Of a DNA stretch of 51,869 bases, positions 3,908 to 50,216 are shown one piece after another. The DNA comes from Blautia sp. BIOML-A1 (GTDB taxonomy: Bacteria; Bacillota; Clostridia; Lachnospirales; Lachnospiraceae). Under the pieces are notes generated by a model. It was not told the origin of the DNA. It made no database searches and was given only the letters and a program-made list of their open reading frames with translations. The DNA lies in the NCBI RefSeq assembly GCF_009883055.1, contig NZ_WWVR01000023.1:1-51869 (forward strand), given 5' to 3'. Numbering within the stretch: the stretch's first letter is position 1; every line of letters starts with the position of its first letter. Made by a program: the position numbers and the translations under genes.

Positions 3908-5248
3908 ATGAGAATAGAAAAAAACAATAAGAGAACTTTTAAGGAAAAATCTACAGGAAAACCGTGGACAGGTAAGTCAGAAACAAAGAAGTATGCGGAC
4001 AAAAAGAAACCGGAGTTTAAGAAAAATGTAACAAAAAAGACAGATCAGAAAAAGCCTGAGGGCAAGAAAAACGAGGGAAAGAAAGAGGAACGGAAGAGAA
4101 AATCACTTTGTCCGGTACATGGCAGATGTGGAGGTTGTCAGCTTCTGGATATTCCATATAAGGATCAGTTAAAACAGAAACAGACACAGGTGACAAAGCT
4201 TCTGAAGCCATACTGTCCTGTAGAGAAGATTGTCGGGATGGAAGATCCGTTTCATTACAGAAACAAAGTACATGCGGTTTTTGGACACAAAAAAGATGGT
4301 ACGGTAATCTCCGGCATTTATCAGGAGGGAACACATTTCATTGTTCCGGTGGATGAATGTCTGATCGAGGATCAGAGAGCAGATGCGATCATCAGGGATA
4401 TCCGCGGGCTTCTGAAATCCTTCAAGATCAAGACCTATAATGAAGATACAGGATATGGTCTGTTCCGTCATGTGCTGATCCGTACCGGATACCACAGTGG
4501 GCAGATCATGGTAGTACTTGTCCTTGGTTCACCGATCCTGCCGTCCAAGAACAATTTTGTCAAAGCACTGCGTAAGCTTCATCCGGAAATCACAACGATC
4601 GTGTTGAATGTAAACGGACAGAAAACAAGCATGATCCTGGGAGAGAAGGAGACAGTTCTTTATGGTAAGGGCTATATCGAGGACGAGCTTTGCGGAAAAA
4701 CCTTCCGTATTTCTTCCAAATCCTTCTATCAGGTGAATCCGGTCCAGACAGAGAAACTGTATGGGAAGGCAATCGAACTGGCAGGACTTACTGGCAAAGA
4801 GCGTGTGATCGATGCATATTGCGGCATCGGAACGATTGGACTGATCGCCAGCGACAAGGCAAAGGAAGTCATCAGCGTGGAACTGAATCCGGATGCTGTG
4901 CGGGATGCAATCGTAAATGCAAAACGAAATGGGATCAAAAATGTCCGTTTTTATCACAATGATGCAGGCATATTCATGCGTCAGATGGCAGAAGCGGGAG
5001 AACATGCCGATGTTGTGTTTATGGATCCGCCTCGAAGCGGAAGCGATGAGAAATTCCTTTCATCTGTGCTTACCTTAAAGCCGGAGAAGATTGTGTATGT
5101 CTCCTGCGAACCGACAACACTGGCACGGGATCTGAAATATCTCACAAAGCACGGATACAAAGCGGTACGTGCAGTGCCGTTTGATATGTTTCCGGCGACA
5201 GAGCATGTGGAGACCGTTTGTTTACTCTCGCGAAAAGCCTCAGTTTAA
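3908..5248 (+). CDS. rlmD: 23S rRNA (uracil-C5)-methyltransferase, RlmD/TrmA family
   Basis: This SAM-dependent enzyme is predicted to make 5-methyluridine in 23S rRNA. Residues 1 to about 58 are an unusual lysine-rich, low-complexity tail that stands where many homologues have a TRAM domain. An Fe-S cysteine cluster follows (CPVHGRCGGC, about 60-70). The C-terminal Rossmann methyltransferase domain has YCGIGTIGL (SAM binding), MDPPRSG and the catalytic VSCEPTTLARDL. The length, 446 residues, is usual for Firmicutes homologues. The start at 3908 follows a GGAGAGGGG stretch and leaves one base after the upstream gene. Members can target U747, U1939 or tRNA U54, so the exact position is not certain. 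Confidence 0.88.
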   Translation: MRIEKNNKRTFKEKSTGKPWTGKSETKKYADKKKPEFKKNVTKKTDQKKPEGKKNEGKKEERKRKSLCPVHGRCGGCQLLDIPYKDQLKQKQTQVTKLLKPYCPVEKIVGMEDPFHYRNKVHAVFGHKKDGTVISGIYQEGTHFIVPVDECLIEDQRADAIIRDIRGLLKSFKIKTYNEDTGYGLFRHVLIRTGYHSGQIMVVLVLGSPILPSKNNFVKALRKLHPEITTIVLNVNGQKTSMILGEKETVLYGKGYIEDELCGKTFRISSKSFYQVNPVQTEKLYGKAIELAGLTGKERVIDAYCGIGTIGLIASDKAKEVISVELNPDAVRDAIVNAKRNGIKNVRFYHNDAGIFMRQMAEAGEHADVVFMDPPRSGSDEKFLSSVLTLKPEKIVYVSCEPTTLARDLKYLTKHGYKAVRAVPFDMFPATEHVETVCLLSRKASV

Positions 5249-5336
5249 GCGGGTTTCCGGCGATTATCGCAGGATATGAACCTGTGTTTTTAGCGAAAAA
5301 TTATGAGAATATAGAATTTCTCCACAAGGGGTGTAA

Positions 5337-5404
5337 GTAAAATCCGCGGACAACTGCTTGTGCGCCGAAACTTTATCGGCATAAAGCGTGTCCGCGGATT
5401 TTAC
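5337..5404. repeat. 16-bp perfect inverted repeat at the left edge of the island
   Basis: The arms GTAAAATCCGCGGACA (5337-5352) and its exact reverse complement (5389-5404) are separated by 36 bases, which hold a smaller GCCGA/TCGGC hairpin. It sits 89 bases past rlmD and just upstream of the island promoter. It may act as the rlmD terminator, or may mark an insertion boundary. Confidence 0.6.
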
Positions 5405-5424
5405 CATTTGTACAAGATATTCCA

Positions 5425-5453
5425 TTGAAAGTGTTCCTCTAAAGGATTATAAT
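5425..5453 (+). promoter_or_regulatory. SigA promoter of the island operon
   Basis: TTGAAA (5425-5430), a 17-base spacer and a perfect TATAAT (5448-5453) lie upstream of the small HTH gene. Transcription should start near 5460, giving a short leader. Confidence 0.75.
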
Positions 5454-5486
5454 AAATATGTTGTCATTGTAATATGGAGGAAGTAT

Positions 5487-5687
5487 ATGGAACTTTTAAC
5501 AACAACCGAAATGGCAAAAAAGTGGGGGCTCTCCAGACGAAGAGTAACAACATACTGTACAAATGGGCGGATCGAAGGAGCGATTATGAAGGGAAATACA
5601 TGGCTAATACCTGATAATGCGATAAAGCCTGAAGATCCCAGGCGTACAAGAAAAAATAGTGATGAGATAGAGGAGGGCGCTAAATGA
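5487..5687 (+). CDS. Small HTH DNA-binding protein (excisionase/MerR-like)
   Basis: This 66-residue protein starts at 5487, with TGGAGG six bases upstream. Residues 6-45 form a MerR/excisionase-like winged helix: TTTEMAKKWGLSRRRVTTYC, then NGRIEGAIMKGNTWLIPDNA. The remainder is a basic tail (PRRTRKNSDE). Such small proteins act as local repressors or as excisionase-type DNA-bending factors. It is first in the island operon and overlaps the next start by four bases (ATGA), so it is a likely autoregulator. A longer frame opening at 5388 was rejected because it has no ribosome-binding site and covers the promoter. Confidence 0.8.
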   Translation: MELLTTTEMAKKWGLSRRRVTTYCTNGRIEGAIMKGNTWLIPDNAIKPEDPRRTRKNSDEIEEGAK

Positions 5688-6682
5688 GTTCATATACTGA
5701 GATTGATACAGCTTTATTAGATTTGGATTTTACAAATCCGCGTATACAAAATTATTTACAAAACTATCCGGAAGAAAGCAGATCAGGAGAATTACTTGCT
5801 ATGCTGCTAGGAACTGGAACTGACAGTTGTGCAAGTTTAAAGGAGTCTATCAAGGAGCATGGTGGAATCATTAATCCAATTATTGTAAATCACTTTCCGG
5901 ATGGCAGATACGTAGTTATCGAGGGTAACACTCGTCTGCAAATATATAGAGATTTTATTAGGGACAATGTGCCAGGAAATTGGAATAAAATCAGGGCTAT
6001 CATCTATGAGAATCTCGAAAATAATGAAATGCACTCAATTCGGTTACAGGCACATTTGGTTGGACCAAGAGATTGGGATGCTTATGCCAAGGCGAAATAT
6101 TTAACCTTTCTTTCGGACGAAGAGAAAATGCCTATGAAAGAACTTTTGGCGTATTGTGGTGGATCCTCAAAAGCATCAGAAATTCGCTACATGATTCAAG
6201 CATATAAAGATATGAGAGATATATATGCTCCACTATGTGAGGATGACACACAGTTCGATCAAAAGAAATTTTCCGGCTTTGTTGAATTACAAAAAAAGAA
6301 TGTTGTGGAAAGTCTTCAGCTACATGGATATGACAAAACTGATTTTGCACAATGGATGGTAGATGAAAAATTCTCTCGATTAGAAGACGTGAGACGATTA
6401 CCACAGATTCTGAATAGTAAAAGAGCAAGGCAGGCTTTTTTAAAGCATGACACGGCTGCGGCTAAGAAAATTTTAGAAGCTGAGGATATCACACCGGATT
6501 CTCTGAAAAATGTTACCTACGAGATGTTGGCCAATGAACTTTCAAAGAGAATGTTTGACATTACACATGTGGAGGTCCTTAAGCTAAAAACAGATGCTGA
6601 GTATGAGGAAAAATTAAACGCACTACGAAAAGTAGTTGAGACAGTGCAGAGCATAGTCTTAGATGAAATTGATGGTAACTGA
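5684..6682 (+). CDS. ParB/sulfiredoxin-fold protein 1 of the island
   Basis: The N-terminal part of this 332-residue protein is a ParB/Srx-like domain: LDFTNPRIQNYL near residue 10, then GGIINPIIVNHFPDGRYVVI followed by EGNTRLQIYRD near residues 60-97. ParB-fold proteins bind nucleotide (CTP or ATP); phage and defence versions can be nucleases or DNA-bound scaffolds. A middle region with GPRDWDAYAKAKYL and a GGSSKASEIRYMIQ helix pair resembles the KorB-type HTH placed after the ParB box in true ParBs. No parA gene or centromere-like repeat is nearby, so plasmid segregation is unlikely. It is translationally coupled to the HTH gene. Confidence 0.75.
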   Translation: MSSYTEIDTALLDLDFTNPRIQNYLQNYPEESRSGELLAMLLGTGTDSCASLKESIKEHGGIINPIIVNHFPDGRYVVIEGNTRLQIYRDFIRDNVPGNWNKIRAIIYENLENNEMHSIRLQAHLVGPRDWDAYAKAKYLTFLSDEEKMPMKELLAYCGGSSKASEIRYMIQAYKDMRDIYAPLCEDDTQFDQKKFSGFVELQKKNVVESLQLHGYDKTDFAQWMVDEKFSRLEDVRRLPQILNSKRARQAFLKHDTAAAKKILEAEDITPDSLKNVTYEMLANELSKRMFDITHVEVLKLKTDAEYEEKLNALRKVVETVQSIVLDEIDGN

Positions 6683-6683
6683 T

Positions 6684-7082
6684 ATGGGAGAATCAAATAA
6701 GCATAAGGTTTTAGTTGAATACGCCTTAAGATTTATTAAAGATAGCGTTGGGGAGGAGTTGAGTTATTTTATCGAAACCGATATTAATGATGGACGACCG
6801 CTTCCTCAATTGACAATGGAAGGATACAGACCAGACGTATTTTTTGAATACAACGGTGTTATGTTTATAGGAGAGGCAAAAACAAGTGATGACATTTTGA
6901 GAGAACATAGTATAAATCAATATTACTCATACTTGAAAAAATGTTCATTAAACCAGGGACATGCAACATTTGTTTTGGCAGTTCCTCTTGAAGACCGGGC
7001 CAGGGCAAATAATATTCTTGGAAAAATCAAGAAAGAAATACCTGGGGATTATGAAGTAAAAGCGATTGGAATGATTGTATAG
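6684..7082 (+). CDS. PD-(D/E)xK nuclease-fold protein
   Basis: Starting at ATG 6684 the product is 132 residues. Residues 49-66 read RPDVFFEYNGVMFIGEAK, which gives the D51...E64-x-K66 signature of the restriction-endonuclease fold, with a possible helix glutamate near residue 12. QYYSYLKKC afterwards suits the family's next helix. This suggests a metal-dependent DNA nuclease, perhaps VRR-NUC or Hjc-like. An in-frame ATG at 6663 would overlap the preceding gene by 20 bases; neither start has a clear ribosome-binding site, so translation probably depends on coupling. The helicase gene begins two bases after its stop. The substrate is unknown. Confidence 0.7.
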   Translation: MGESNKHKVLVEYALRFIKDSVGEELSYFIETDINDGRPLPQLTMEGYRPDVFFEYNGVMFIGEAKTSDDILREHSINQYYSYLKKCSLNQGHATFVLAVPLEDRARANNILGKIKKEIPGDYEVKAIGMIV

Positions 7083-7084
7083 TT

Positions 7085-8563
7085 ATGAAAAGTAACAAGT
7101 TAAAACGAGAGCCTAAATATATAGCCAAATTTAAGGCTTTTCCGTATCAGCAAGAAGCTGTAGATGCGGTGAAAGATTTAGAATATGCTGCGATTTTTCA
7201 TGAGCAGGGATTGGGTAAAACTAAAATTGCCATTGATGTGCTTTTATATTGGCTGTCAGAGTGTTCGATGGATACTGCTTTAATTGTTACCAAAAAACAG
7301 CTGGTTGCAAACTGGGTTAACGAGTTTAAAGACCATACTTCGATAAAACCTGCAGTGTTAAATACAGATAAAAATAATAACTACCGAATTTTTTGTGGAC
7401 CATACAGAGTGGTGTTGACAAATTTTGAGACTCTAGAAACAGAAAAACAACAATTCGAATTGTATTTGAAAGTTAGAAATGTCGGGATAATTATTGATGA
7501 GTCTGCAAAATTGAAGAATCCTAATTCAAAATTAACAAAGACCTATTTTGAGTTGGCTCCGTTGTTTCAGCGAAGAATTATAATGACAGGTACACCTGTA
7601 GCCAATAGACCATATGATATCTGGGCACAGATATATTTTTTGGACTTTGGAGAAAGTCTGGGGGCTGATTTTAACGAGTTTAAAAAGGAAACAGACCTTA
7701 GCAATAAACTTAGTAGAAATACTGATTTACAGGAAGAGTTTGAAGATAATATTTCCCAGATTTTTAATAGGATAAGTTCTTTTACAGTTCGCGAAACAAA
7801 AAATAGTGGAATCATTACACTGCCGGATAAAGTATATATACAGGAAGTTACAGAATTCAATCGTATGCAAGAGGAGTTGTACGAGCGGATAAGAACTGAA
7901 TTATATGCTGAAGTGGTAAGAGATGGTGAAAGATATATTGATGATTCCTCTGCAATTGTCAAGCGTCTACTTCGCTTAATACAGGTTACATCAAATCCCA
8001 AATTGGTAGACGAGGAATGCGAAGCATCTGCAAAGGAGCCTTTGTTGGATGAACTTATTCAAAAAATATTGGCAAATGGTGAAAAATGTATTGTATGGAG
8101 TAATTTTATTGAGAATATAGATTACTTCACTAAAAAGTATCAGGATTTAGGTGCTGTAAAAATACATGGGAAAATGAATATGTATGCTAGAAATCGTTCT
8201 GTCCAAAAATTTCATGATGATGATATTCGTATTCTCTTTGCAACTCCAGCATCTGCAAAAGAAGGTCTGACACTAACAATGGCTAATCATGTTATTTTCT
8301 ATGATAGAGGTTTCAGCCTAGATGATTATTTGCAGGCACAGGATAGAATACACCGCATTTCACAGAAAAAAACATGCTATGTTCATAATATTATTATTAA
8401 GGACAGTATAGATGAATGGGTTGACTTATTATTGAAAGCTAAGCAAAATGCAGCGGCATTATCACAGGGAGATATCAGCTTAGGAGATTATCAAGGCGTG
8501 GCTGATTATAGTTTTGGAGATATTGTAAAAAGCATTTTGGGATTTGAAGAAGTAGATGAATAA
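7085..8563 (+). CDS. SNF2-type superfamily 2 helicase/ATPase
   Basis: This 492-residue protein has a Q-motif-like FPYQQEAVDAV (about 19-29), Walker A EQGLGKT (40-46), motif II DESAK (138-142), motif III MTGTPVANRPYDIW and a C-terminal helicase domain ending in motif VI QAQDRIHRISQ (about 418-428). The RIHRISQ ending and HEQGLGKT are typical of SNF2/Rad54-like translocases, which move along duplex DNA rather than unwinding it. It lacks accessory domains, much as in compact phage or defence versions. It follows the PD-(D/E)xK gene by two bases, so the pair may act as a split restriction-like motor and nuclease. That functional pairing is inference. Confidence 0.88.
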   Translation: MKSNKLKREPKYIAKFKAFPYQQEAVDAVKDLEYAAIFHEQGLGKTKIAIDVLLYWLSECSMDTALIVTKKQLVANWVNEFKDHTSIKPAVLNTDKNNNYRIFCGPYRVVLTNFETLETEKQQFELYLKVRNVGIIIDESAKLKNPNSKLTKTYFELAPLFQRRIIMTGTPVANRPYDIWAQIYFLDFGESLGADFNEFKKETDLSNKLSRNTDLQEEFEDNISQIFNRISSFTVRETKNSGIITLPDKVYIQEVTEFNRMQEELYERIRTELYAEVVRDGERYIDDSSAIVKRLLRLIQVTSNPKLVDEECEASAKEPLLDELIQKILANGEKCIVWSNFIENIDYFTKKYQDLGAVKIHGKMNMYARNRSVQKFHDDDIRILFATPASAKEGLTLTMANHVIFYDRGFSLDDYLQAQDRIHRISQKKTCYVHNIIIKDSIDEWVDLLLKAKQNAAALSQGDISLGDYQGVADYSFGDIVKSILGFEEVDE

Positions 8564-8572
8564 GGTGGCAGT

Positions 8573-9577
8573 ATGGGAATAAGAGTTATTGGACAGAAAA
8601 AGTTTGAAGTTACCGAAACAGAATTATTACAACAAGATTTATTGTTTTACCTTGATAATCCTAGAGTATATTCGGTATTGCATGAAAATGGACACGATAA
8701 TCCGACTCAGACAGAAATTGAAGAGATAATGTGTTCACTGGACCATGTTAAGAGTTTGAAGTCACAAATCATGCAAAATGGTGGCCTTATTGAGCCGCTG
8801 ATAGTGGTCAAACGAAAAGATAGATATGTTGTGTTGGAGGGAAATAGCCGCCTGGCAGCATACAGAATTTTAGCAAAAAATGACCCGCTTAAATGGTCTA
8901 GAGTCTTGGTGCAGATATTACCAGAGGATATTTCTGACTCAGATATATTTACACTTCTCGGTACATTCCATTTAAATCCTAAAAAGGATTGGAGTAAATT
9001 TGAACAAGCCGCCTATATTTATAGACAAAAGAAGGAATTGGGATGTTCGGATTCCGCCTTGGGAAAACAAGTGGGTATTTCAGCGATAACTGTAAAAAAA
9101 TATTGTGAGATATATGGCTTGATGGTAGAGCATAATGATACTCATCAATCTCATTGGAATATGTATGAGCAGTATGTACAGAACAAAGGCATTAAACAAT
9201 ATCGAAACACTTATCCAGAGATGGATTCGTTTTTCGCAAAGCAGGTAAAGACAGGGGAAATTGTCAGAGCTCAGGACGTAAGAGATATACTGGGAAAAAT
9301 TGCTTCTGATGAGGGTAAAAGTTCAACGCATATAATGCAGGATTATATTAAAGGTGATATCGACTTAGAAGAGGCCCATGCACGTTTTGAGGCCACCGGA
9401 AGAAGCGGTGACAACTATGAAAAAGTAAAAAAATTTCAGAGATTAATTTCAGAAAAAGATTTTTGCGATGAGTTAAAAAAAGAGGCTGTTGGCAATAGTA
9501 AAGACATATTATTTTCATTGAGAAAAATTAATACAGCAGTAACTCAGTTAATGAAAGAAATTGATAAGAAAAAATAG
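8573..9577 (+). CDS. ParB/sulfiredoxin-fold protein 2 of the island
   Basis: This second ParB-like protein (334 residues) has the same layout as the one at 5684. It opens with DLLFYLDNPRVYSVL, then the box GGLIEPLIVVKRKDRYVVL followed by EGNSRLAAYRIL, then FHLNPKKDWSKFEQAAYIYR, and a clear HTH (SDSALGKQVGISAITVKKYC, about residues 160-180). The two appear to be diverged paralogues. GGTGG lies before the ATG, nine bases after the helicase stop. It closes the first transcription unit of the island. HTH plus ParB box suggests DNA loading or sliding; no centromere-like array was found. Confidence 0.75.
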   Translation: MGIRVIGQKKFEVTETELLQQDLLFYLDNPRVYSVLHENGHDNPTQTEIEEIMCSLDHVKSLKSQIMQNGGLIEPLIVVKRKDRYVVLEGNSRLAAYRILAKNDPLKWSRVLVQILPEDISDSDIFTLLGTFHLNPKKDWSKFEQAAYIYRQKKELGCSDSALGKQVGISAITVKKYCEIYGLMVEHNDTHQSHWNMYEQYVQNKGIKQYRNTYPEMDSFFAKQVKTGEIVRAQDVRDILGKIASDEGKSSTHIMQDYIKGDIDLEEAHARFEATGRSGDNYEKVKKFQRLISEKDFCDELKKEAVGNSKDILFSLRKINTAVTQLMKEIDKKK

Positions 9578-9592
9578 TAGAGAAGTCAGGGA

Positions 9593-9658
9593 TCGACAAA
9601 TCAAAAGAAAATGGTTATAATGAAACCGTTCTGGTGATAGCGCTCCAGGACGGTTTCA
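9593..9658 (+). promoter_or_regulatory. Internal island promoter with overlapping 14-bp inverted repeat
   Basis: TCGACA (9593-9598), 17 bases and TATAAT (9616-9621) form a good SigA promoter. Starting at the last base of the -10 box is an inverted repeat, TGAAACCGTTCTGG (9621-9634) with CCAGGACGGTTTCA (9645-9658), broken by one mismatch that would be a G-U pair in RNA. It covers the expected start site, so it could be an operator, or a 5' hairpin on the mRNA. No T-run follows, so it is not a simple terminator. Confidence 0.65.
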
Positions 9659-9678
9659 CTATGCGTAGGAGTTTAATC

Positions 9679-11697
9679 GTGGAAGATATATTGTTAATTG
9701 AACCGGCATACAAAAATAAATACCCACCAATCGGGCTAATGAAAATTGCGTATTTTCATCGTTATATCATGCACGATTATGTAAGATTCGCAAAGGGAAG
9801 ATTACCGGAGGGACTAGAAAATAAAAAATGGGATAGAGTATATGTAACTACTCTTTTTACCTTCGAGTGGGAAAATACAAAAAAAGCATTACAATATGCG
9901 CTGTCTGTAGTAAAACCAGGCGGAAAGGTTTTTACGGGAGGTATCCTGGCAACACTGCGGCCGGAGTGGATTGCAAAGGAATTTCCTACTGTAATAAATA
10001 ATACCGGACTTCTTAATCACGAAGGTACCCTTGGATTAAAAGGGGAGGAGTGTATCGACACACTTCCTTTGGATTACGGGATATTGGACGATATAAAGGA
10101 TGAGTATAAATATCCTGCGGAGGATGCATACTTTACATATATGACTAGGGGCTGTGGTATGAACTGTACTTTTTGTGCGGTTAAAACATTGGAACCTACA
10201 TATGAGCCATATGTATCTATTTCAGATAGTATTAAGAGAATTGATAAAGAGTTTGGACCAAAACGAGACCTTTTGTTGATGGATAATAATGTTTTGAGAT
10301 CTCCCAAATTTGATCAAATAATTGATGAGATAAAAGCATTAGGATTTGAAAAAGGTGCAACATTTGTAAATCCGAAAACAGGAAAAACTGTTGTAAGACA
10401 TGTTGATTTCAACCAGGGGTTAGATGCATTTTTACTTAATGAGCATAAAGCACAAAGGTTAGGAGAATTAGCAATAAAACCAGCACGTATCGCCTTTGAT
10501 CATATTGAAGATGAAGATGTATATGTGCGCGCGATTACATTGTGTGCAAGGGCAGGGATTGATCATATGTCCAATTACCTTTTATACAATGGAGAGGATT
10601 TCACTGGTAAAGGGCACTCTTATCATGCGGATACACCAGAGGACTTATTCTATCGCATGCACCTGACTATGGAGCTTGGCGAAAATTTAACCGAGGAGCT
10701 GGGAAGAAAAATTGCTATTTTTTCGTTCCCTATGAGATATATTCCGCTAGATAATGATCAAAGAGGATTTATTGGTGCTAATTGGAATGCAAAATATCTT
10801 CGAGCTCTACAGTGCATGTTGATACCAACACAGGGAAAAGGTATCCAGGGAAGATCCTTCTTTGAGGCAGATTTTGGTAAGACAGCCGAAGACTTCGTGA
10901 TGTATCTTGCAATGCCTGAAAGATTGTTAAATAAACGTGGTCATTTTGTAGAAAGAAAAGATGAGCCGAAATTTGAAAGAGAGATTCGGTATACACAGTG
11001 GTCTGAAAATAGACATCTTATCGACACCTGGATGAAGTATTATTCGATGTTCGAGAAGGATACAGTTCTGGAATATATTGGGTGTAATAGATTTAGCGTG
11101 GAAACGTTAGACAAAATTGAAAATGAAGAACTGAAAAAATTGTATTTTCTTTATCTTACGCCAAGTGCAACAATTCGAGTATTCTCGGATTGCACGGAGG
11201 ATACAAAAAGAATAATTAGCACATTTATTTTAGAAGAACTCCCGTTTATGTATTCTCGTATCGTTGAAACGATACTGAGTTCGAAACCGGGATACAAAGT
11301 AATCGCCGGTATACTTGAAAATTTTGGGGAAAAAGTATGTACAGATTTGTTGAAAAAAATCGATCTATTCAGCGGGCATGATAATGATAAATTAACGATG
11401 CTAATAAAGGCAAACAAATCCAAACGCTTAGTTGATTTTGATTTCTCATTATTACAGTTCATTCCATATTTTCACGTGAGTAATTTGCTTTCAAAACAAG
11501 AGGAGCAGATTATTATGAACAGCGCATACGAATTAAAAGAGGCGCCAATAAGAAAAATTCTATTATTACATTTGGATGAATTGAAAGATGTATTAATAAA
11601 GACAAATGGCGCTCAGCCTGGTGATACACAAATAATTTCTGTAATAGAAGAACAGATTAAAGAACTGTATCATCAGATAAGTATATTTGAATTATAG
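9679..11697 (+). CDS. Large radical SAM protein of the island
   Basis: I place the start at GTG 9679, with GTAGGAG seven bases upstream, giving 672 residues. The N-terminal 140 residues (DILLIEPAYKNKYPPIGLMK ... KPGGKVFTGGILATLRPEW) resemble the cobalamin-binding-like domain found before many radical SAM cores. The cluster motif is Cys159-Cys163-Cys166 in TRGCGMNCTFC. Later stretches (LLLMDNNVLRSPKF, DFNQGLDAFLLNE) fit the radical SAM barrel. A long C-terminal extension (about 400-672) is unrecognised. The substrate is unknown: base modification, backbone modification or a small molecule are all open. The next gene follows after 11 bases. Confidence 0.8.
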   Translation: MEDILLIEPAYKNKYPPIGLMKIAYFHRYIMHDYVRFAKGRLPEGLENKKWDRVYVTTLFTFEWENTKKALQYALSVVKPGGKVFTGGILATLRPEWIAKEFPTVINNTGLLNHEGTLGLKGEECIDTLPLDYGILDDIKDEYKYPAEDAYFTYMTRGCGMNCTFCAVKTLEPTYEPYVSISDSIKRIDKEFGPKRDLLLMDNNVLRSPKFDQIIDEIKALGFEKGATFVNPKTGKTVVRHVDFNQGLDAFLLNEHKAQRLGELAIKPARIAFDHIEDEDVYVRAITLCARAGIDHMSNYLLYNGEDFTGKGHSYHADTPEDLFYRMHLTMELGENLTEELGRKIAIFSFPMRYIPLDNDQRGFIGANWNAKYLRALQCMLIPTQGKGIQGRSFFEADFGKTAEDFVMYLAMPERLLNKRGHFVERKDEPKFEREIRYTQWSENRHLIDTWMKYYSMFEKDTVLEYIGCNRFSVETLDKIENEELKKLYFLYLTPSATIRVFSDCTEDTKRIISTFILEELPFMYSRIVETILSSKPGYKVIAGILENFGEKVCTDLLKKIDLFSGHDNDKLTMLIKANKSKRLVDFDFSLLQFIPYFHVSNLLSKQEEQIIMNSAYELKEAPIRKILLLHLDELKDVLIKTNGAQPGDTQIISVIEEQIKELYHQISIFEL

Positions 11698-11708
11698 GAG
11701 ACAGAATA

Positions 11709-13157
11709 GTGGAGCATCAGTTATTAATTGGAAAGTTCACACTAGAGTCCCTTACAAGCGGATTGTATGTATCTCCGTTGGACTTATATAGGGAGTATGT
11801 ACAAAACGCAGCCGATTCAATTGACGAGGCTCTTGAGCAGGGGATTCTAAAGAAAGGAGAAGAAAAGATCTCAATTACGGTTTCAGAATCTGAAAGGATA
11901 ATAAAGATTTCAGATAATGGAACTGGCGTTGGAGCAAATGATATTTACTCAAATCTTATAGATATAGGAAATTCCAAGAAAAGACATTCTAATAGTCGAG
12001 GCTTTAGGGGAATTGGAAGATTATCAGGATTAGGATATTGTCAGAAGTTGAAATTTTTGACATCTATCCATGGAGAAGAAAAGGCATCCTGTATTATATA
12101 TGATGCTGAAAAATTAAAGTACTTACTCTCTCCACAAGTGGACAGTCGTGATTCGATTGATCAAGTTTTATCAAGTGTTCTCACAATTGAAGAAATACCC
12201 GAGCGTATTAATAAGCATTACTTTTCAGTTGAGCTTTACGGAGTAGTCCCAGAAAGTGATTTGCTGAATGATTCCGAGGTGGTCCCGTATTTACAACAGA
12301 ATCTTCCGGTTCCGTTTTCTAGAGACTTTGTATGGGGCTCAATGATAAAACAAAAGTTGGTCCAGATGGAGGTTGAACTTGCGGAATATAATGTGGAGCT
12401 GAGAACAGACCGTACGGTAATAGATATTTGCAAACCGTACAAGAATAAAATACTTGCTGATAGGATAAGAAAAATAAATGATTCTATATCAGATATTAAC
12501 TTCGTGCCCTTTTATTCTGGCGAAAAAGTTACGGCTATGCTTTGGTATGCGGAGACAAACTTTTTAGGAACCGTTTTGGATAAAGATATAAAGGGAATTA
12601 GGATCAGGCAAGGAAATATTCTTATTGGTGACGAGAATACATTAAGGAAATGTTATAAAGAGGAACGATTTAATAGCTGGATGGTTGGAGAGTTGCTTGT
12701 CTTTAATGAAGATATCATTCCGAATACAAGACGAGATGACTATGAAAAAAATAGTGCCTATAAAGAACTGCTTAGTCAGTTCACGGAATGGGCTAATGAA
12801 ATGTCAAGGCAGATACGTCACCGATCTTACGAAAGAAGTTTAACTCAGAGCGATAAGAAATTTTTGGCTGATGAAAGTGTTACGGATGTAGATGGAGTGG
12901 ACATTTCTCTTGGGACAGAATTAGATAGTTATGATATGGATGATTCTGATTCGGTTGCCAATACAGATCTGCTCAGTAAGTTATCACTGCTTATGGATAT
13001 GGGAAAAAAGAAAACAAAATATAATGTTTTGAATCTTAATAGTAAGTTTACAGTCGACCAGAAGCAGACGCTAGAGCATGTTTTTGATGCATTGTATGCA
13101 AAATATACTAATGCCAAAGCTAATGATATTATCCAGACAATAATCGATTCGTTTTAA
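11709..13157 (+). CDS. GHKL (Hsp90-like) ATPase of the island
   Basis: This 482-residue protein starts with GTG 11709; TAGGAG overlaps the radical SAM stop codon. Its N-terminus is a GHKL ATPase: N box LYREYVQNAADSID (N33, D36), G1 DNGTGVG (69-75) and G2 RGFRGIGRLSGLG (97-109). The fold and lid match Hsp90 and MORC-like ATPases rather than a histidine kinase, since no H-box is present. The middle (about 200-370), with IRQGNILIGDE and NTRRDDYE, recalls the Hsp90 middle domain of bacterial HATPase_c_3 proteins. It ends the island. Such ATPases usually clamp on DNA or act as chaperone switches; its client here is unknown. Confidence 0.8.
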   Translation: MEHQLLIGKFTLESLTSGLYVSPLDLYREYVQNAADSIDEALEQGILKKGEEKISITVSESERIIKISDNGTGVGANDIYSNLIDIGNSKKRHSNSRGFRGIGRLSGLGYCQKLKFLTSIHGEEKASCIIYDAEKLKYLLSPQVDSRDSIDQVLSSVLTIEEIPERINKHYFSVELYGVVPESDLLNDSEVVPYLQQNLPVPFSRDFVWGSMIKQKLVQMEVELAEYNVELRTDRTVIDICKPYKNKILADRIRKINDSISDINFVPFYSGEKVTAMLWYAETNFLGTVLDKDIKGIRIRQGNILIGDENTLRKCYKEERFNSWMVGELLVFNEDIIPNTRRDDYEKNSAYKELLSQFTEWANEMSRQIRHRSYERSLTQSDKKFLADESVTDVDGVDISLGTELDSYDMDDSDSVANTDLLSKLSLLMDMGKKKTKYNVLNLNSKFTVDQKQTLEHVFDALYAKYTNAKANDIIQTIIDSF

Positions 13158-13270
13158 TGTGAACTTCCAGTAATTTTTCCACCTAAAGAAAAAAGAACGA
13201 AATAAAATCATAAAAAATCCCGGTTTTCTGCGGCTTTCCATTTCAGATAGCCGGGAAATATAGTACAATT

Positions 13271-13294
13271 ATTTTAGGCGGATAACCGCCTAAA
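13271..13294 (+). promoter_or_regulatory. Hairpin before the transposase ribosome-binding site
   Basis: TTTTAGGCGG and CCGCCTAAAA form a perfect 10-bp stem with a four-base loop directly before the GGAGG of the transposase gene. In RNA it could limit translation of read-through transcripts, as known for some insertion sequences. Confidence 0.5.
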
Positions 13295-13305
13295 AGGAGG
13301 GCGCT

Positions 13306-13822
13306 ATGTATCTGGATTTTTTAGTGAAAGTACCAACCGTAAAAGGCAAGATCACACGGAGAAAAAAGTCAAATGTTGTATATATAGAGTATGAGTATGA
13401 CCGGGTTTATGATCCATCCCGGAAGTATACTTTTCCCAAAAGAGTAACGATCGGAAAATTGTCAGATACGGATCCGGAACTCATGAAACCGAATCAAAAT
13501 TTCCTGAAATATTTTCCCGATGCAGAGCTTCCGGAAAGCAAAAACAGAACTTCCAGAAGCAGCTGTCTCAGGGTAGGAACATATTTTGTACTGCGTAAGA
13601 TCATAGAAGAATGCAGCTTGAACGATATCCTTGGAAAGTATTTTGGATCACGTGACATGGGGTTGTTTTTAGATCTGGCTGTTTATTCGATCATAGCAGA
13701 AAACAATGCAGCGCAGTACTATCCGGATTATACATACAACCATCCACTTTTTACGGAAAAGATGAAACAATACAGCGATTCAACCGTATCAGATTTCCTG
13801 AATTCAGTAACAGATGATCAAA
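13306..13822 (+). pseudogene. Truncated IS transposase (IS1634/IS4-like), N-terminal fragment
   Basis: The first 170 or so residues resemble the N-terminus of IS1634-type DDE transposases: KKSNVVYIEYEYDRVYDPSR, KRVTIGKLSD and GTYFVLRKIIEECSLNDIL. Full-length members are several hundred residues, and no DDE catalytic region is present. The frame stays open past the likely breakpoint (near 13822) and stops at 13845 after five junction residues (GCPMI), inside a histidine kinase sequence. It has a strong AGGAGG site and an upstream hairpin, so it may still be translated. It marks a deletion or insertion event at the right edge of the island. Confidence 0.8.
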
Positions 13823-13823
13823 G

Positions 13824-14969
13824 TACAGGATGTCCCATGATATGAGGACACCGATGAATGCAATCATAGGATTTACCGGTATTGCAATGAAAAACAATCC
13901 GTCAGACGAAGTGAAAAATTGTCTGGAAAAGATTGACGAAAGCTCAGAGCATTTACTGTCGCTGATCAATGATATATTAGATCTGACCCGCATCGAAAAT
14001 GGAAAAGTGAAATACAATCCGGTACCGGCGGATGTGAAAAACATTACAGATTCTGCATTGGATATTACAAAAGGCTTTCTTACGAACAGGGATATCAACT
14101 TTAAGATTCAGCGTGAAGAAGCAAAGATTCCAAATGTACTTGCGGATCCTGCACGCCTGCGTGATGTGCTGGTCAATATTCTGAGCAATGCCGTGAAATT
14201 CACTCCGGATGGAGGGACGATTACCTTTGAAGCCCGGTGTCAGGAAAAGGGCGGGGATGGATATATAAATATGCGTTACCGCATTTCGGATACTGGTATT
14301 GGCATGAGTGAGGAATTTACAAAAGAAGTTTTTGAGGAATTTGCACAGGAAGATTCCAATGTGAGAACGCAGTACCATGGAGTTGGACTGGGGATGGCTA
14401 TCGTAAAGAAGTATGTAGATATGATGGGTGGAACCATTTCCGTGCAGAGTAAAAAGCATGAGGGAACCACATTTACTGTGGATATTCCTTTGGAAATTAC
14501 AGATAAGGAATGTAATAAGTCAGACACAGGTTTTTCTGAAAAGGTAAATCTTACAGGTGTGAATGTCCTTCTTGCAGAGGATAATGAACTGAATGCAGAG
14601 ATTGCTGCCGTGCAGTTGGAAGAGTTCGGGATGAATGTAGAAAGAGCTGTGGATGGAAAGAATGCTGTTGAGATTTTCAGAAATCATCCGGAAGGCACAT
14701 TTGATGTAATCTTGATGGATATCATGATGCCTGAAATGAATGGTTATGAAGCAGCAAAAGCAATCAGGGCAATGAGTGACAGACCGGATGGAAAAAATAT
14801 TCCTATTATAGCAATGACAGCTAATTCATTTGCAGAAGATGTTCAGGCATCACTGGATGCAGGAATGAACGCACATTTGTCAAAGCCGATTGTGATTGAT
14901 GAAGTTATAAAAACGATTTTAAAATGGATCAGACTCGTGAAATGGAGGAAAAATTATGTCGAACAATAA
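13824..14969 (+). pseudogene. Hybrid histidine kinase, N-terminally truncated
   Basis: The sequence begins abruptly at the H-box (MSHDMRTPMNAIIGF from 13830). It continues through a full HATPase domain (N box NILSNAVKFTPDGG, G1 DTGIGMS, G2 GVGLGMAIVKKYV) and a receiver domain (LLAEDNELN, phospho-acceptor in DVILMDIMMPEMNGYEA, SKP near the end). All sensing and membrane parts are missing and replaced by the transposase fragment, which is in another frame. A 379-residue soluble kinase could be made from ATG 13830, but there is no good ribosome-binding site. I regard it as a remnant, although its catalytic residues are intact. Confidence 0.8.
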
Positions 14970-22341: not shown

Positions 22342-24105
22342 TTATTCAGAAACTCTGACAAACTGACTGTTATAGAGATTCTGGTAGAATCCGCCTTTTG
22401 CCATCAGTTCTTCATGAGAACCCTGTTCGATGATGGCACCATCTTTCATGACAAGGATTTCATCTGCATTTCGGATGGTAGACAGACGGTGAGCAACGAT
22501 GAAGCTGGTACGTCCTTTCATCAGGTGTTCAAAAGCTTCCTGTACCATCAGCTCAGTTCGAGTATCAATGCTTGAGGTTGCTTCATCCAGAATCAGCATA
22601 GGCGGCAGACAGAGCATGACACGGGTGATGCAGAGAAGCTGTTTTTCACCCTGGCTTAAACTGTCTTCCTTGAGAATGGTATCCAGCTTGTCCGGAAGAC
22701 GCCGGATGAATTCCCAGCTGTGAGAGCGTTTTGCTGCCTCAATGATTTCCTCGTCGGATGCATCGGGTCTTCCGATGTTGATGTTGTCACGGACAGTGCC
22801 GTTTTTGATCCAGGTTTCCTGAAGGACCATACCAAAGCTACTTCTCAGAGAATGCCTTGAGATTTGGTCGATCGGGTGTCCGTCAATGGAGATACTTCCT
22901 TTGGTCACATCATAAAATCTCATCAGCAGATTGATAAAGGTAGTCTTGCCGCAGCCTGTAGGGCCAACGATTGCGATACGCTTTCCGGGTTCTGCATGCA
23001 GATGAAAGTTCTCGATCAGCTTTTTGTCAGGAACATAGCGGAAGCTGACATTGTCGATATTGACTTCGCCCTGGACGTTGGAAATAGTTTCCTCTGGATC
23101 CGGACTTTCCGGAGTTTCTTCCAGAAGTGCAAAGATCCTGGCTGCGCAGGCAAGGGCATTCTGAAGTTCCGTGATGACAGAACTGATGTCATTGAATGGC
23201 TTCATGTACTGGTTCGCATAGGAGAGAAGTACAGAAAGACCGCCGACCGTCAGAGTACCGCCCGGGATCATAAAAGCACCAGCCAGAGCTACACCGGCAT
23301 AGATCACATTGTTGACAAAGCGGGTGGACGGGTTGGTAAGGCTGCTGTAAAAAATAGCCTTCTGACTGCATTCTTTTAACTCCTGATTGATTTCGGCAAA
23401 ACGTGCAGAGGATTTATCCTCGTAACCGAATGCCTGAACGATCTTCTGATTTCCGATCATTTCTTCGATAAGAGCTGTCTGACGACCGCGCGCATCGCTC
23501 TGTTTCCGGAACATATGGAAAGAGCGGGAAGAAATAAATCTGGCTACAAAGAAGCTCAGCGGGGTCAGGACAATGACCAGCAGTGTGATCCAGAAGTTTT
23601 TGGAAAACATGAAGATCAGAGTGCCGATGATTGTTACAATACCGGAAAAGAGCTGTGTAAATCCGAGCAGGAGACCGTCTGAGAGAATGTCGGTATCTGC
23701 AATGACGCGGCTGATGATATCACCGGTACTGTGTCCATCCAGATAGGAGAGGGGAAGTACCTGGATATGGCGGATCGCTCTGGAACGGATATCCTGTACT
23801 GTGCGAAATGTCATACGGTTGTTGATGATATTCATGACCCACACAGCAAGACTGGACACGATGACCATCACAAGAATTCTGGAAAGATAATACCACATCA
23901 TCTCGAAGTTTACCGTATGTTCTGCGATGATCTGGTCGATTGCATCGCCGAACAGTACCGGGACATACAATTGAAGGACCACGGAAACAGAAGCCAGGAT
24001 GATGCTTGAGATCAAAAGCAGACGGTAGCGGCCGATAAAGTGCAGAACTTTAAAGAGAGTTTCGGCACTTCCTGCAGTTGATGTTTTTTTGTTGTTTGTA
24101 CTCAT
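22342..24105 (-). CDS. ABC exporter half-transporter (canonical nucleotide site)
   Basis: The product (587 residues) has an N-terminal six-helix exporter membrane domain (about 25-315) and a C-terminal ATPase: Walker A GPTGCGKTT, signature LSQGEKQLLCITR, Walker B LILDEATSSID with the catalytic glutamate, and the H-loop in VAHRLSTIRN. It is the second gene of an operon, overlapping the upstream half-transporter by four bases, so the pair forms a heterodimer. This half carries the consensus Walker B; its partner has Asp in place of Glu. Drug or lipid export is typical; the substrate is unknown. Confidence 0.92.
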   Translation of the reverse strand: MSTNNKKTSTAGSAETLFKVLHFIGRYRLLLISSIILASVSVVLQLYVPVLFGDAIDQIIAEHTVNFEMMWYYLSRILVMVIVSSLAVWVMNIINNRMTFRTVQDIRSRAIRHIQVLPLSYLDGHSTGDIISRVIADTDILSDGLLLGFTQLFSGIVTIIGTLIFMFSKNFWITLLVIVLTPLSFFVARFISSRSFHMFRKQSDARGRQTALIEEMIGNQKIVQAFGYEDKSSARFAEINQELKECSQKAIFYSSLTNPSTRFVNNVIYAGVALAGAFMIPGGTLTVGGLSVLLSYANQYMKPFNDISSVITELQNALACAARIFALLEETPESPDPEETISNVQGEVNIDNVSFRYVPDKKLIENFHLHAEPGKRIAIVGPTGCGKTTFINLLMRFYDVTKGSISIDGHPIDQISRHSLRSSFGMVLQETWIKNGTVRDNINIGRPDASDEEIIEAAKRSHSWEFIRRLPDKLDTILKEDSLSQGEKQLLCITRVMLCLPPMLILDEATSSIDTRTELMVQEAFEHLMKGRTSFIVAHRLSTIRNADEILVMKDGAIIEQGSHEELMAKGGFYQNLYNSQFVRVSE

Positions 24106-25883
24106 GCTAATGTTACCTCCGCAGCATTGCCGGAAACGGCAGTTTTTGAAGAATCATAGAGTGCCCGTTCTTCAGGGAATTGTGAGAAGTAGATTTCACG
24201 GTAAATCTCGCAGGAGCGGATCAGATTTTCGTGTACACCTTTTCCGGCCAGCTCGCCATCGTTCAGGACAAGAATGAGATCTGCCTGGCGGATACTGGCA
24301 GCACGCTGGGATACCAGAAAGGTGGTAACATTTCCGCTCAGCTGATGCAGAGATCTGCGAAGAGCTGCATCTGTGGCAAAGTCGAGTGCACTGGCACTGT
24401 CATCCAGGATCAGAAATTCAGGTTTTTTGACAACGGCGCGTGCAATGGTAAGACGCTGCTTCTGACCGCCGGAAAGATTGCGGCCGTTCTGTTCCAGTCT
24501 GAAATCAAGCTGTCCGTCTTTCCCCTCGACAATCTCACGTGCCTGGGCAGTTGTGAGTGCATCCCAGATTTCTGCATCTGTGGCATCATCACGGCCCCAT
24601 TTCATGTTTTCGCGGATCGTTCCTTTAAAAAGTGCTGCACGCTGTGGCACGACACCGATTTTCTGCCGCAGCGTCTGCTGACTGTAGCTGCGGATATCCT
24701 GTCCATCTATACGGACAGTACCCTGTGAGGCATCATAAAAACGTGCGATCAGATTGACAAGAGTAGACTTACCGCTTCCGGTACCGCCGATAATACCAAC
24801 GGTCTGCCCCTTTTGGACAGAAAAGCTGATATTGCTGAGGCTTGGTGCACTGGCACCAGCGTAGGCAAATGTAACATTCTCAAATGCAAGTGCAGTTGCA
24901 TCAGAAGACGGCGCAGCGGAGGTCTTTGGATAGCTCATAGAGGTTTTGACTTTGAGGATATCCGCCACACGGCCAGCACAGGCTGCGGATTTATTGAGGG
25001 TGATGATCAGAGAAGCCAGTTTGATGAGTTCCACGATCATTTGAGCCATGTAGTTATAAAGTGCTACGACCTCACCCTGCTGCATGTTTCCAATATTTAC
25101 CTGGAGTCCTGCACGGCTGATCAGGATGACAGTTGCGATATTGATCAGAACATAGGTCACTGGGTTGAGAAGTGCGGAAAGCTTTCCGACAAATTCATTT
25201 AACCGGGTGAGCTGTTCGTTGCTCTGGTCAAATTCCTGTACAGATTCCTTTTCACGACAGAAAGCACGGATGACACGCACACCGGTAAGATTCTCTCTGG
25301 TCAGTCGTGTGACGATATCCAGACGACTCTGTACTTTACGAAAAAGAGGGATGCTGAGATACATGATCACAAAAACGACCAGGAACAAAAATGGGATCGC
25401 AACGGCGAAGACCAGGGCACATCGTGTATTGATAGTGAATGCCATGACCATGGAGCCGAGTACGATAAACGGACTTCTGAGCAGAAGACGAAGTCCCATA
25501 TTTACACCGTTCTGTACCTGATTGATATCATCAGTCAGGCGGGTGATCAGAGTATCTGTTCCAAGAGTGTCAAGCTCTGTATAGGAAAGCTTCTGTACAT
25601 GATCATAGACGGCCTGCCTGAGTTCCGTTGCAAAGCCAACACTGGCTTTTGCTGCAAAGTACTGGGCTGTGATGCTGACGGTCAGACCGGCAGCCGCCAT
25701 CAGGACTAGGATAAAAAATCGCTGAATGATGTAAGGACGGTTGTTTCCCGTGATACCCACATCAATGATCTGGGCAATAACTACAGGAACAAGCAGGTCA
25801 AACACAACTTCCAGAAATTTGAAGAAAGGTGCAAGAATGCTTTCTTTTCTGTAATTTTTCAGATAGATTGCGAGAGATCGCAT
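24102..25883 (-). CDS. ABC exporter half-transporter (degenerate nucleotide site)
   Basis: The start is set at ATG 25883 (GGAGG eight bases upstream, sequence MRSLAIYLKNYRKESILAPF), giving 593 residues; the open frame runs much further upstream without support. It has a membrane domain (about 15-300) and an ATPase with Walker A GGTGSGKST and signature LSGGQKQRLTIAR. Its Walker B reads LILDDSASALD: Asp replaces the catalytic Glu, and the H-loop histidine is also missing (VSQRAASIRQ). These changes are usual for the non-hydrolysing side of a heterodimeric exporter. It is the first gene of a two-gene operon. Confidence 0.92.
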   Translation of the reverse strand: MRSLAIYLKNYRKESILAPFFKFLEVVFDLLVPVVIAQIIDVGITGNNRPYIIQRFFILVLMAAAGLTVSITAQYFAAKASVGFATELRQAVYDHVQKLSYTELDTLGTDTLITRLTDDINQVQNGVNMGLRLLLRSPFIVLGSMVMAFTINTRCALVFAVAIPFLFLVVFVIMYLSIPLFRKVQSRLDIVTRLTRENLTGVRVIRAFCREKESVQEFDQSNEQLTRLNEFVGKLSALLNPVTYVLINIATVILISRAGLQVNIGNMQQGEVVALYNYMAQMIVELIKLASLIITLNKSAACAGRVADILKVKTSMSYPKTSAAPSSDATALAFENVTFAYAGASAPSLSNISFSVQKGQTVGIIGGTGSGKSTLVNLIARFYDASQGTVRIDGQDIRSYSQQTLRQKIGVVPQRAALFKGTIRENMKWGRDDATDAEIWDALTTAQAREIVEGKDGQLDFRLEQNGRNLSGGQKQRLTIARAVVKKPEFLILDDSASALDFATDAALRRSLHQLSGNVTTFLVSQRAASIRQADLILVLNDGELAGKGVHENLIRSCEIYREIYFSQFPEERALYDSSKTAVSGNAAEVTLA

Positions 25884-49208: not shown

Positions 49209-50216
49209 ATGGAATACAGAACATTAGGAAAAACAGGATTAAAGATTTCACGTATGGGATTTGGAGGGATTCCGATCCAGAAGATTGACGAGGAAGGTAC
49301 AAGAAAGCTGCTCCACGAGATGATGGAGAAGGGAGTCAACTATATTGATTCTGCGAGAGGATATACGGTCAGTGAACAGTATATCGGCTATGGCCTGGAG
49401 GGAATCCGTGACAAATTTGTACTTGCAACCAAATCCATGTCCCGGACAAAAGAAGCAATGGCAGCAGATATTGAGACAAGTCTTGGAAACTTCCGTACAG
49501 ACTATATTGATCTTTATCAGGTACACAATCCAAGTATGGAGCAGCTCGATCAGGTGATGGGAGAAGGCGGTGCACTGGAGGCTCTTATGGAGGCGAGGGC
49601 TGCCGACAAGATCGGACACATCGGACTGACTGCACATTCTACAGAGGTTTTTGAGCGTGCACTGGAACTGGACTGGGTGGAAACGATCATGTTCCCATAT
49701 AATATCGTTGAGCAGCAGGGAGCAGAACTGATTCACAAATGTGCAGAAAAGAACATCGGTTTTATTGTTATGAAACCGCTGGCGGGGGGCGCGATCGAGG
49801 ATGCATCCCTGGCTCTTCGTTATGTCTGTTCCAATCCGGATGTGACCGTAGTGATCCCGGGAATGGCAGAGATACACGAACTGGAGCAGAACCTGGCTGC
49901 ATGTTCCAATACAGAGCCGCTTACGCAGGAAGAATTAAAGGAAATGGATAAAGTCCGCGAACAGCTCGGCACCGATTTCTGCCGCCGCTGTAACTACTGT
50001 GCCCCGTGTACTGTCGGAATCAATATTCCAAATGTATTTCTGTTTGCCGGTTATCTTCAGAGATACGATTTGGCTGACTGGGCGAAGGATCGTTACAGTA
50101 CGCTCAAGGTGAAGGCTTCCGCCTGCATTGGCTGCGGAAAGTGTGAGCCAAGATGCCCGTATCATCTGCCGATTCGTGAAAAACTGAAGAAGTGCGCCAG
50201 GGACATGGGAGAATAA
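49209..50216 (+). CDS. Aldo/keto reductase with C-terminal 4Fe-4S domain
   Basis: The 335-residue protein has the AKR barrel (residues 1 to about 250): YRTLGKTGLKISRMGFGGIP, the catalytic-type GVNYIDSARGYTVSEQYIG with Tyr, and YQVHNPS. A C-terminal cysteine-rich region follows: CRRCNYCAPC near 260-270, then ACIGCGKCEPRCPYH (about 305-320) of ferredoxin type. The Fe-S tail suggests electron transfer to or from ferredoxin rather than plain NAD(P)H use. This clostridial AKR subgroup is common; its substrate is unknown. Confidence 0.9.
   Translation: MEYRTLGKTGLKISRMGFGGIPIQKIDEEGTRKLLHEMMEKGVNYIDSARGYTVSEQYIGYGLEGIRDKFVLATKSMSRTKEAMAADIETSLGNFRTDYIDLYQVHNPSMEQLDQVMGEGGALEALMEARAADKIGHIGLTAHSTEVFERALELDWVETIMFPYNIVEQQGAELIHKCAEKNIGFIVMKPLAGGAIEDASLALRYVCSNPDVTVVIPGMAEIHELEQNLAACSNTEPLTQEELKEMDKVREQLGTDFCRRCNYCAPCTVGINIPNVFLFAGYLQRYDLADWAKDRYSTLKVKASACIGCGKCEPRCPYHLPIREKLKKCARDMGE

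Follow-up and report, generated by a model that had tools for sequence, protein, structure and literature searches.

Genes of the island

Positions 1 to 51,869 of contig NZ_WWVR01000023.1 of Blautia sp. BIOML-A1 (Lachnospiraceae), here called the window, contain an island of seven genes (5487 to 13157) that appears to be a bacterial immune system of a kind not reported so far. It encodes a small helix-turn-helix (HTH) protein, two ParB-fold proteins (ParB1 and ParB2), a small PD-(D/E)xK nuclease, an SNF2-family DNA translocase, a radical S-adenosylmethionine (radical-SAM) enzyme and a GHKL ATPase (Table 1). An earlier sequence-only reading had described seven tightly packed genes on one strand. 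All seven open reading frames (ORFs) were indeed found, and neighbouring frames overlap or are separated by no more than 11 bases, apart from the 56 bases that precede the radical-SAM frame. The claim that the island is richer in A+T than its neighbours was borne out as well: its G+C content is 36.2%, against 44.4% for the rest of the window and 42.9–46.6% for 62 outside windows of the same length. The domain assignments of that reading also stood, for the HTH, SNF2 and GHKL proteins through Pfam, for ParB1 and the radical-SAM enzyme through matches below the cut-off, for ParB2 through PHROG, and for the nuclease through its D/E/K residues and its structural model.

Table 1. Features of the island and its borders (window coordinates)
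Feature	Position	Strand	Evidence
Perfect 16-bp inverted repeat (arms 5337-5352 and 5389-5404, 36 nt apart)	5337..5404	.	Repeat finding, pattern scan
Small HTH_17/excisionase-like DNA-binding protein	5487..5687	+	Pfam HTH_17 E=2.9e-6; GGAGG, ATG at 5487
ParB1, ParB-fold, conserved EGNTR box	5684..6682	+	Pfam, PHROG, alignment
Small PD-(D/E)xK nuclease	6684..7082	+	Alignments, AlphaFold2 (AF2) model, Foldseek and VIA matches
SNF2-family DNA translocase, motifs GLGKT, DE and motif VI intact	7085..8563	+	Pfam SNF2 E=4.4e-30; alignment; PADLOC
ParB2, second ParB-fold protein, conserved EGNSR box	8573..9577	+	PHROG, NCBIfam, alignment
Radical-SAM enzyme: N-terminal Rossmann (cobalamin-binding-like) domain, CX3CX2C, helical C-terminus	9634..11697	+	Pfam, alignments, predicted structure
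GHKL (Hsp90/MutL-like) ATPase	11709..13157	+	Pfam HATPase_c_3 E=9.7e-10; alignment
IS1634-type transposase fragment (outside the system)	13306..13845	+	NCBIfam E=5.3e-8, below model cut-off

ParB1 matches ParB_N slightly below the Pfam cut-off (E=1.2e-5; 25.7 versus 26.3 bits). ParB2 gives no ParB match in Pfam and is identified by phrog_4715 (E=4e-11), with a weak NCBIfam match to TIGR00180 (E=0.0037); for none of the seven proteins did an NCBIfam family exceed its cut-off. The nuclease, which most likely starts at 6684, has no Pfam match. Its residues D51, E64 and K66 are invariant in alignments of seven and of nine sequences, and the AF2 model has a pLDDT of 92.6. The individual PDB fold matches of this model are weak, and we take most of them to be PD-(D/E)xK enzymes; a search of PDB sequences with the nuclease profile gave Hjc at a non-significant E=0.32. 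The motifs of the SNF2 protein are invariant across seven aligned sequences. Judged from the sequences, the catalytic residues of both nuclease and translocase thus appear intact, as the logic of restriction-modification requires.

For the radical-SAM protein the true start is probably 9661 or 9679 (residue 10 or 16 of the frame that opens at 9634), where its relatives begin, and its Pfam match to Radical_SAM (E=7.9e-6; 26.6 bits) falls below the cut-off of 29.5. The cysteines of its CX3CX2C motif (C174, C178 and C181), which fold matches place in the radical-SAM barrel, are present in all 31 aligned proteins; no other cysteine is invariant, the next best being C304 (24/31) and C140 (23/31). 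MiaB and RimO methylthiotransferases need three N-terminal cysteines for an auxiliary [4Fe-4S] cluster, and MiaB-type chemistry is not favoured since such a conserved triad is missing from the 31 aligned proteins. By its predicted fold the protein belongs with radical-SAM enzymes of the cobalamin or methylthiotransferase type, with structural matches to MgmA, TsrM, OxsB, AprD4, MiaB and MtaB at 11–15% identity. The cobalamin-binding family PF02310 scores E=0.096 with the window protein and E=1.6e-6, still below its cut-off, with the relative at locus L073, while a search of PDB sequences with the radical-SAM profile returned one weak and irrelevant match. The family is large: 5914 of 7998 candidates scored belong to it at E<=1e-3, distant radical-SAM proteins included, and the cluster of the window protein itself holds 1704 member sequences. 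In the GHKL ATPase the ATP-binding motifs are invariant among 12 aligned sequences, and its profile matches HtpG in the PDB (E=4.3e-10).

Relatives and exchangeable cassettes

Loci with the gene set ParB1-nuclease-SNF2-ParB2 (cassette A) were found by seeding with the SNF2 protein, the radical-SAM protein being left unused. This gave 16 distinct strong loci, i.e., three in a class sample of 391 genomes, seven on viral contigs and six on plasmids (seven records). The seven viral loci, at 47% identity or more, are part of a total of 34 and include L036, the near-identical twin of the window (L001, L021, L023, L024, L036, L075, L076 and L078 are one and the same virus record); the other 27, at 29% identity or less, had no radical-SAM or GHKL match in a scripted check. 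From Clostridia to rhizobial plasmids, the radical-SAM gene and the ParB genes accompany SNF2 in all 16 loci. The nuclease was detected in 15, the remaining one (L070) having a similar-sized, undetected gene in its place and diverged ParB proteins, and the GHKL gene in 13, being missing from L037, L073 and L074. The radical-SAM proteins of L037 and L074 belong to another subfamily and are 48% identical to each other; that of L037 aligns to the family profile at 96% probability, and Pfam gives E=0.48 only for L037 and nothing for L074. Here the slot is retained and the enzyme is changed.

The neighbourhood search proposed in the sequence-only reading thus revealed homologues that keep their gene order across phyla and are not scattered independently. 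The suggested unit of seven genes has to be reduced by one. Six genes form a conserved system, and the HTH gene, likely a local regulator, is ruled out as a core gene, with a best match of E=0.051 across the ten cassette-A loci tested.

In Alphaproteobacterial versions a DGQHR/DndB-family gene is inserted (PF14072, E=1.4e-9), and a pair of PIN_8 and second GHKL genes is often nearby. This pair, which may be a further arm or effector, adjoins the radical-SAM/DGQHR/GHKL module at L025 (15312-18795), L026, L027, L070, L071 and L072. About 10 kb from the rhizobial version in L025 lies a CBASS-like pair of a patatin-like phospholipase and a DncV-like nucleotidyltransferase (23689-25290), consistent with a defence neighbourhood. 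In L028, L038, L041 and L070 the cassette runs opposite to the radical-SAM/GHKL pair, so the two are separable modules. A radical-SAM match was obtained for 13 plasmid records, and six of the eight that were opened carry cassette A (L027 and L072 do not).

A search of the genome collection seeded with the radical-SAM alignment yielded 19 loci: three with cassette A, 14 with a DISARM-related cassette DrmA-DrmB-NERD helicase (cassette B) and two with neither (L013 and L017), of which L017 holds a transmembrane protein and a DndB-family gene. A predicted membrane protein and a DndB-family (PF14072) protein adjoin the radical-SAM gene both there (10-1685) and at L014 (13586-15228). Close copies among the 14 B loci (L012/L015/L020 and L016/L018) reduce the number of independent events; contig ends truncate L006, L008 and L019. 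In nine of the 14 a FapA/bactofilin-like first gene was clustered, a part that we do not know from DISARM; its product, e.g., at L003 (1725-2999), contains a PcrA-tudor-like stretch (E=0.015).

In the class sample the radical-SAM gene occurs at E<=1e-60 in 11 of 391 genomes, two with cassette A, two with neither cassette (L108 and L110) and seven with a third arrangement, NurA-HerA with GHKL (cassette C), forming operons of the order NurA-HerA-GHKL-radical SAM (L105-L107, L109 and L111-L113). The cassette-C HerA and NurA proteins have no Pfam match and were identified by PDB profile (HerA 7f6d, E=1.2e-55; NurA weakly, E=0.0024). Profile comparison also matched them to the annotated HerA and Rad50/Mre11-associated exonuclease, read as NurA, of Marinitoga camini virus 1, where the radical-SAM gene adjoins HerA and the NurA-like gene (L029 8001-11827). 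A family sample contained the radical-SAM gene in 13 of 397 genomes, nine times beside HerA, twice beside DrmA and twice at contig ends. Of the ten genomes with HerA in this sample, nine have the radical-SAM gene no more than a few kilobases away, and the tenth (G629) has only short HerA/NurA pieces.

The core is the radical-SAM gene, usually with the GHKL ATPase, while three or more arms, among them the SNF2/ParB/nuclease set, can be exchanged. A tree built from 43 radical-SAM proteins (477 columns) comprises 16 rows with cassette A, 14 with B, 7 with C and 6 with neither, and the labels A, B and C have to change at least seven times on it. The window protein (A) is sister to L002 (B) with 100/100 support, and L007 (A) is nested among B rows. 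With all four labels 12 changes are needed, compared to 22.0 in shuffles, of which 0/200 were as low; these counts are approximate because several branches are long (L038, L073, L108 and others) and L019, L037 and L074 were left out. Cassette swaps are thus recurrent, although the labels are still clustered on the tree.

What the radical-SAM enzyme may replace is indicated by related loci. For the METHYLTRANSFERASE slot, the family sample contained ten DrmA-positive genomes: the two scoring above 1800 bits both adjoin the radical-SAM gene, three at 944–960 bits (34–37% identity to cassette B) have no radical-SAM gene of the family, and five at 259–283 bits were left out of the locus comparison. 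The middle three (L114, L115 and L116) all possess DrmA-DrmB-NERD, an extra UvrD-like gene and a D12 N6-adenine DNA methyltransferase (PF02086, E=1e-56 to 4e-73). In L116 the methyltransferase directly follows the NERD helicase, which is the place of the radical-SAM gene in cassette B; in L114 and L115 it lies one and three genes before DrmA, respectively. Because of this adenine methyltransferase in three DrmA-DrmB-NERD loci without the radical-SAM gene, the radical-SAM enzyme seems to occupy the slot of a DNA-modification enzyme. According to PMC9142583, DrmAB responds to DNA methylation status. A motif scan for methyltransferases (ORFs of at least 150 amino acids, within 9.5 kb ahead of the radical-SAM gene and 6 kb behind it) yielded candidates in four of 37 radical-SAM loci, none inside the operons. 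L006 has an N6/N4 methylase shortly downstream of GHKL, L041 an MT-A70-type methylase close to its radical-SAM gene, L015 a type I HsdM at a distance of about 5 kb, and L039 an ORF that matches nothing in Pfam. The mutual exclusion of the radical-SAM gene and methyltransferases is, therefore, not strict.

Distant relatives of the radical-SAM enzyme also occur in phages. In the five phage contexts opened (out of ten matching records), a DNA methyltransferase lies at most two genes away from them in Dulem virus 39, an Oscillospiraceae phage and a Bacteroides phage, and no DNA methyltransferase was found beside them in the Marinitoga virus and vir215. Phage loci with a DNA methyltransferase nearby are L030 (3785-7914), L083 (2806-5206) and L085 (2241-5930), and the latter two also hold genes annotated as PAPS reductase or 'reductase'. 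These relatives hint at an uncharacterised phage DNA modification.

Edges of the island

The perfect inverted repeat that the sequence-only reading had placed on the left sits between the upstream gene, a PF05958 uracil-methyltransferase that is presumably rlmD-like, and the operon, and may be an operator, an attenuator or the remnant of a mobile element. Its arm pattern has three matches in the window at up to three mismatches (0.32 expected), and a three-mismatch copy lies at 49948-49963, far from the island. On the right, the insertion sequence debris of that reading was recovered as an IS1634-type fragment that runs, in overlapping frames, into a truncated hybrid sensor kinase (HisKA, HATPase and receiver domains); this stretch (13306-14969) is recombination debris at the edge of the island. 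The proposal that the genes have their own promoters proved weak: the two best sigma-70-like sites (11/12) precede the HTH gene (5425-5453) and the radical-SAM gene (9593-9621), positions that would fit two transcription units, but the total of 26 sites is not above that in shuffled sequence (31.9 +/- 6.4). An Rfam scan of 5100-13500 and a megablast search of the island against 50,697 phage records gave no matches.

The best DNA match of the island is an IMG/VR contig that is 99.8% identical across window positions 5203-13158, beside phage-type genes. The identity takes in the last 46 bp of the uracil-methyltransferase gene (window 5203-5248; L001 about 5571), beginning right after the phage-type genes, and its end, one base past the GHKL stop codon, marks the right edge of the island. 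This suggests that the 3' end of the uracil-methyltransferase gene is an integration or prophage attachment site. The contig was accordingly read as a prophage at this gene end, with too much host flank included in the viral call, and the idea that the island is phage cargo, which is then not required, was rejected. In the same contig the SNF2 gene is, unlike that of the window, read in two pieces near its 5' end (L001 7453-8930), which could be a real break or a sequencing error. In genome G701 a radical-SAM fragment at a contig start adjoins the 3' end of a PF05958 gene (L118 390-3040; 45% identity to that of the window), which may be another insertion at a site of this kind.

Proposed mechanism and known systems

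We consider it probable that the island encodes a modular, self-marking defence system resembling restriction-modification, with the radical-SAM enzyme in the modification slot. What was observed is its domain content, catalytic motifs, gene order and fold class, the cassette swapping and, in related loci without the radical-SAM gene, an adenine methyltransferase. From there, we infer defence as the function, DNA as the substrate, the chemistry of the mark and marking, rather than sensing or effector chemistry, as the direction. The radical-SAM enzyme, helped by the GHKL ATPase, would mark the DNA of its own cell, possibly with a methyl or larger group on an unreactive carbon of a base, and the ATPase would act as a dimerising clamp, which may bind DNA or pass it on. 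The ParB-fold proteins, to which Alphaproteobacteria add the DGQHR/DndB-family protein, would recognise DNA or regulate access to it. The SNF2 translocase would engage incoming unmarked DNA, to be cut by the small PD-(D/E)xK nuclease, and this restriction arm would be exchangeable for DrmA-DrmB with the NERD helicase or for HerA-NurA. The wider proposal, to which we give somewhat less than an even chance, is a new class of immunity in which a portable radical-SAM/GHKL module sets a possibly cobalamin-dependent self mark, has repeatedly switched between at least three unrelated restriction machines and replaces an adenine methyltransferase.

An unlikely alternative is that the system is defensive and its radical-SAM enzyme makes a small molecule or modified nucleotide, like prokaryotic viperins, or modifies a protein of the system, thereby switching the translocase and nuclease. 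The Rossmann-plus-barrel fold appears, however, to be far from that of viperin, related DrmA-DrmB-NERD loci without the radical-SAM gene have a DNA adenine methyltransferase, and no further gene of at least 60 amino acids that could encode a substrate is common to all operons, shorter peptide genes lying outside this search. We think it more doubtful still that radical-SAM/GHKL alters or removes the DNA modifications of phages, so that the nuclease can cut hypermodified ones: the effector-like SNF2 and PD-(D/E)xK partners and three of the five phage contexts speak for such counter-modification, but the protective type of the D12 methyltransferase in related operons favours self-marking. Least of all do we expect the mobile-element maintenance module that the sequence-only reading gave as its main alternative, in which ParB-like proteins and translocase serve partition or incompatibility of a plasmid or prophage, since the DrmA/DrmB arm is a known defence machine and related loci without the radical-SAM gene have a methyltransferase; plasmids typed conjugative and viral contigs among the carriers, the ParB folds, the excisionase-like HTH and a ParA-family gene near the module in L028 would fit it, but Pfam detects no ParA in the seven proteins of the island, an RNA-methyltransferase-type gene precedes the island in the window, links of the radical-SAM gene extend to DISARM-type DrmA/DrmB and to HerA-NurA, and the gene is patchily distributed.

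To our knowledge, nearly all self-marking immunity uses methyltransferases, the exceptions being phosphorothioate and 7-deazaguanine, each of which opened a field. A radical-SAM self mark would add a new chemistry and probably a new DNA base, a modified base so far undiscovered in gut Clostridia and rhizobial plasmids, together with a simple rule, i.e., one modification module with several interchangeable restriction arms. The family is widespread.

In line with the sequence-only reading, the island could not be matched to a named system. For the radical-SAM, GHKL and nuclease proteins PADLOC gave no match; for the others it returned helicase-domain (SNF2) matches, partial ParB-domain matches (PDC-M38A and PD-Lambda-5_A) and a weak HTH match to mad1 (E=1.3e-5). 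Together with the NCBIfam results for the seven proteins, this rules out a direct match. Full-text literature searches, to which supplements and most subscription papers were outside scope, found no description of the system. The main text of PMC12458937, a 2025 survey of DrmA-type/YprA family helicases, does not mention GHKL, HSP90 or ParB and contains 'radical' once, as 'radically', and the accessible part of PMC10853773 does not describe the system.

The likeness to DISARM lies in the combination of a helicase/nuclease arm and a modification gene in one operon and in cassette B, whose proteins at the one locus tested (L003) match DrmA (PADLOC E=3.7e-173) and DrmB (E=2.5e-66). However, none of the seven island proteins matches DrmA, DrmB (DUF1998/MZB) or DrmC, cassette B has a NERD-UvrD helicase and, in the Pfam matches of L003, no phospholipase-D domain, and radical-SAM/GHKL takes the place of the methylase, of which there is none among the island proteins. 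With type I/II restriction-modification and BREX the system would share a self mark and a translocase/nuclease acting on unmarked DNA, but the island has a radical-SAM enzyme where these have a DNA methyltransferase, for which there is no match. Like Dpd and Dnd/Ssp, it would combine unusual DNA chemistry with a restriction arm. The similarity of the SNF2 protein to DpdE (E=1.8e-40) concerns the helicase only, and DpdA is absent from the seven proteins; a DndB-family gene is confined to some relatives (among them the Alphaproteobacterial versions with their DGQHR/DndB-family gene), and there is no match to DndA, DndC, DndD, DndE or SspB/C/D in the island. The SNF2 helicase domain is also similar to ZorD of Zorya (E=9.8e-45), but the island has no ZorA/ZorB match and encodes its nuclease as a small protein of its own; neither radical SAM and GHKL nor two ParB proteins are known as parts of Zorya. 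ParB1 and ParB2 match the N-terminal part of PD-Lambda-5_A models (E=7.8e-7 and 3.6e-7) and the D12 methyltransferase of L114 matches PD-Lambda-5_B (E=5.3e-20), whereas the island, with this partial A match only, has neither a B-type protein nor a methyltransferase. The proteins of cassette C resemble HerA-NurA and HerA-nuclease systems but are tied to GHKL and radical SAM, and the window has cassette A. Finally, although the radical-SAM enzyme of the island has its own long helical C-terminus and lacks the invariant second-cluster cysteines of MiaB/RimO, it shares with the cobalamin- and methylthiotransferase-type enzymes a two-domain fold of an N-terminal Rossmann domain and a radical-SAM barrel.

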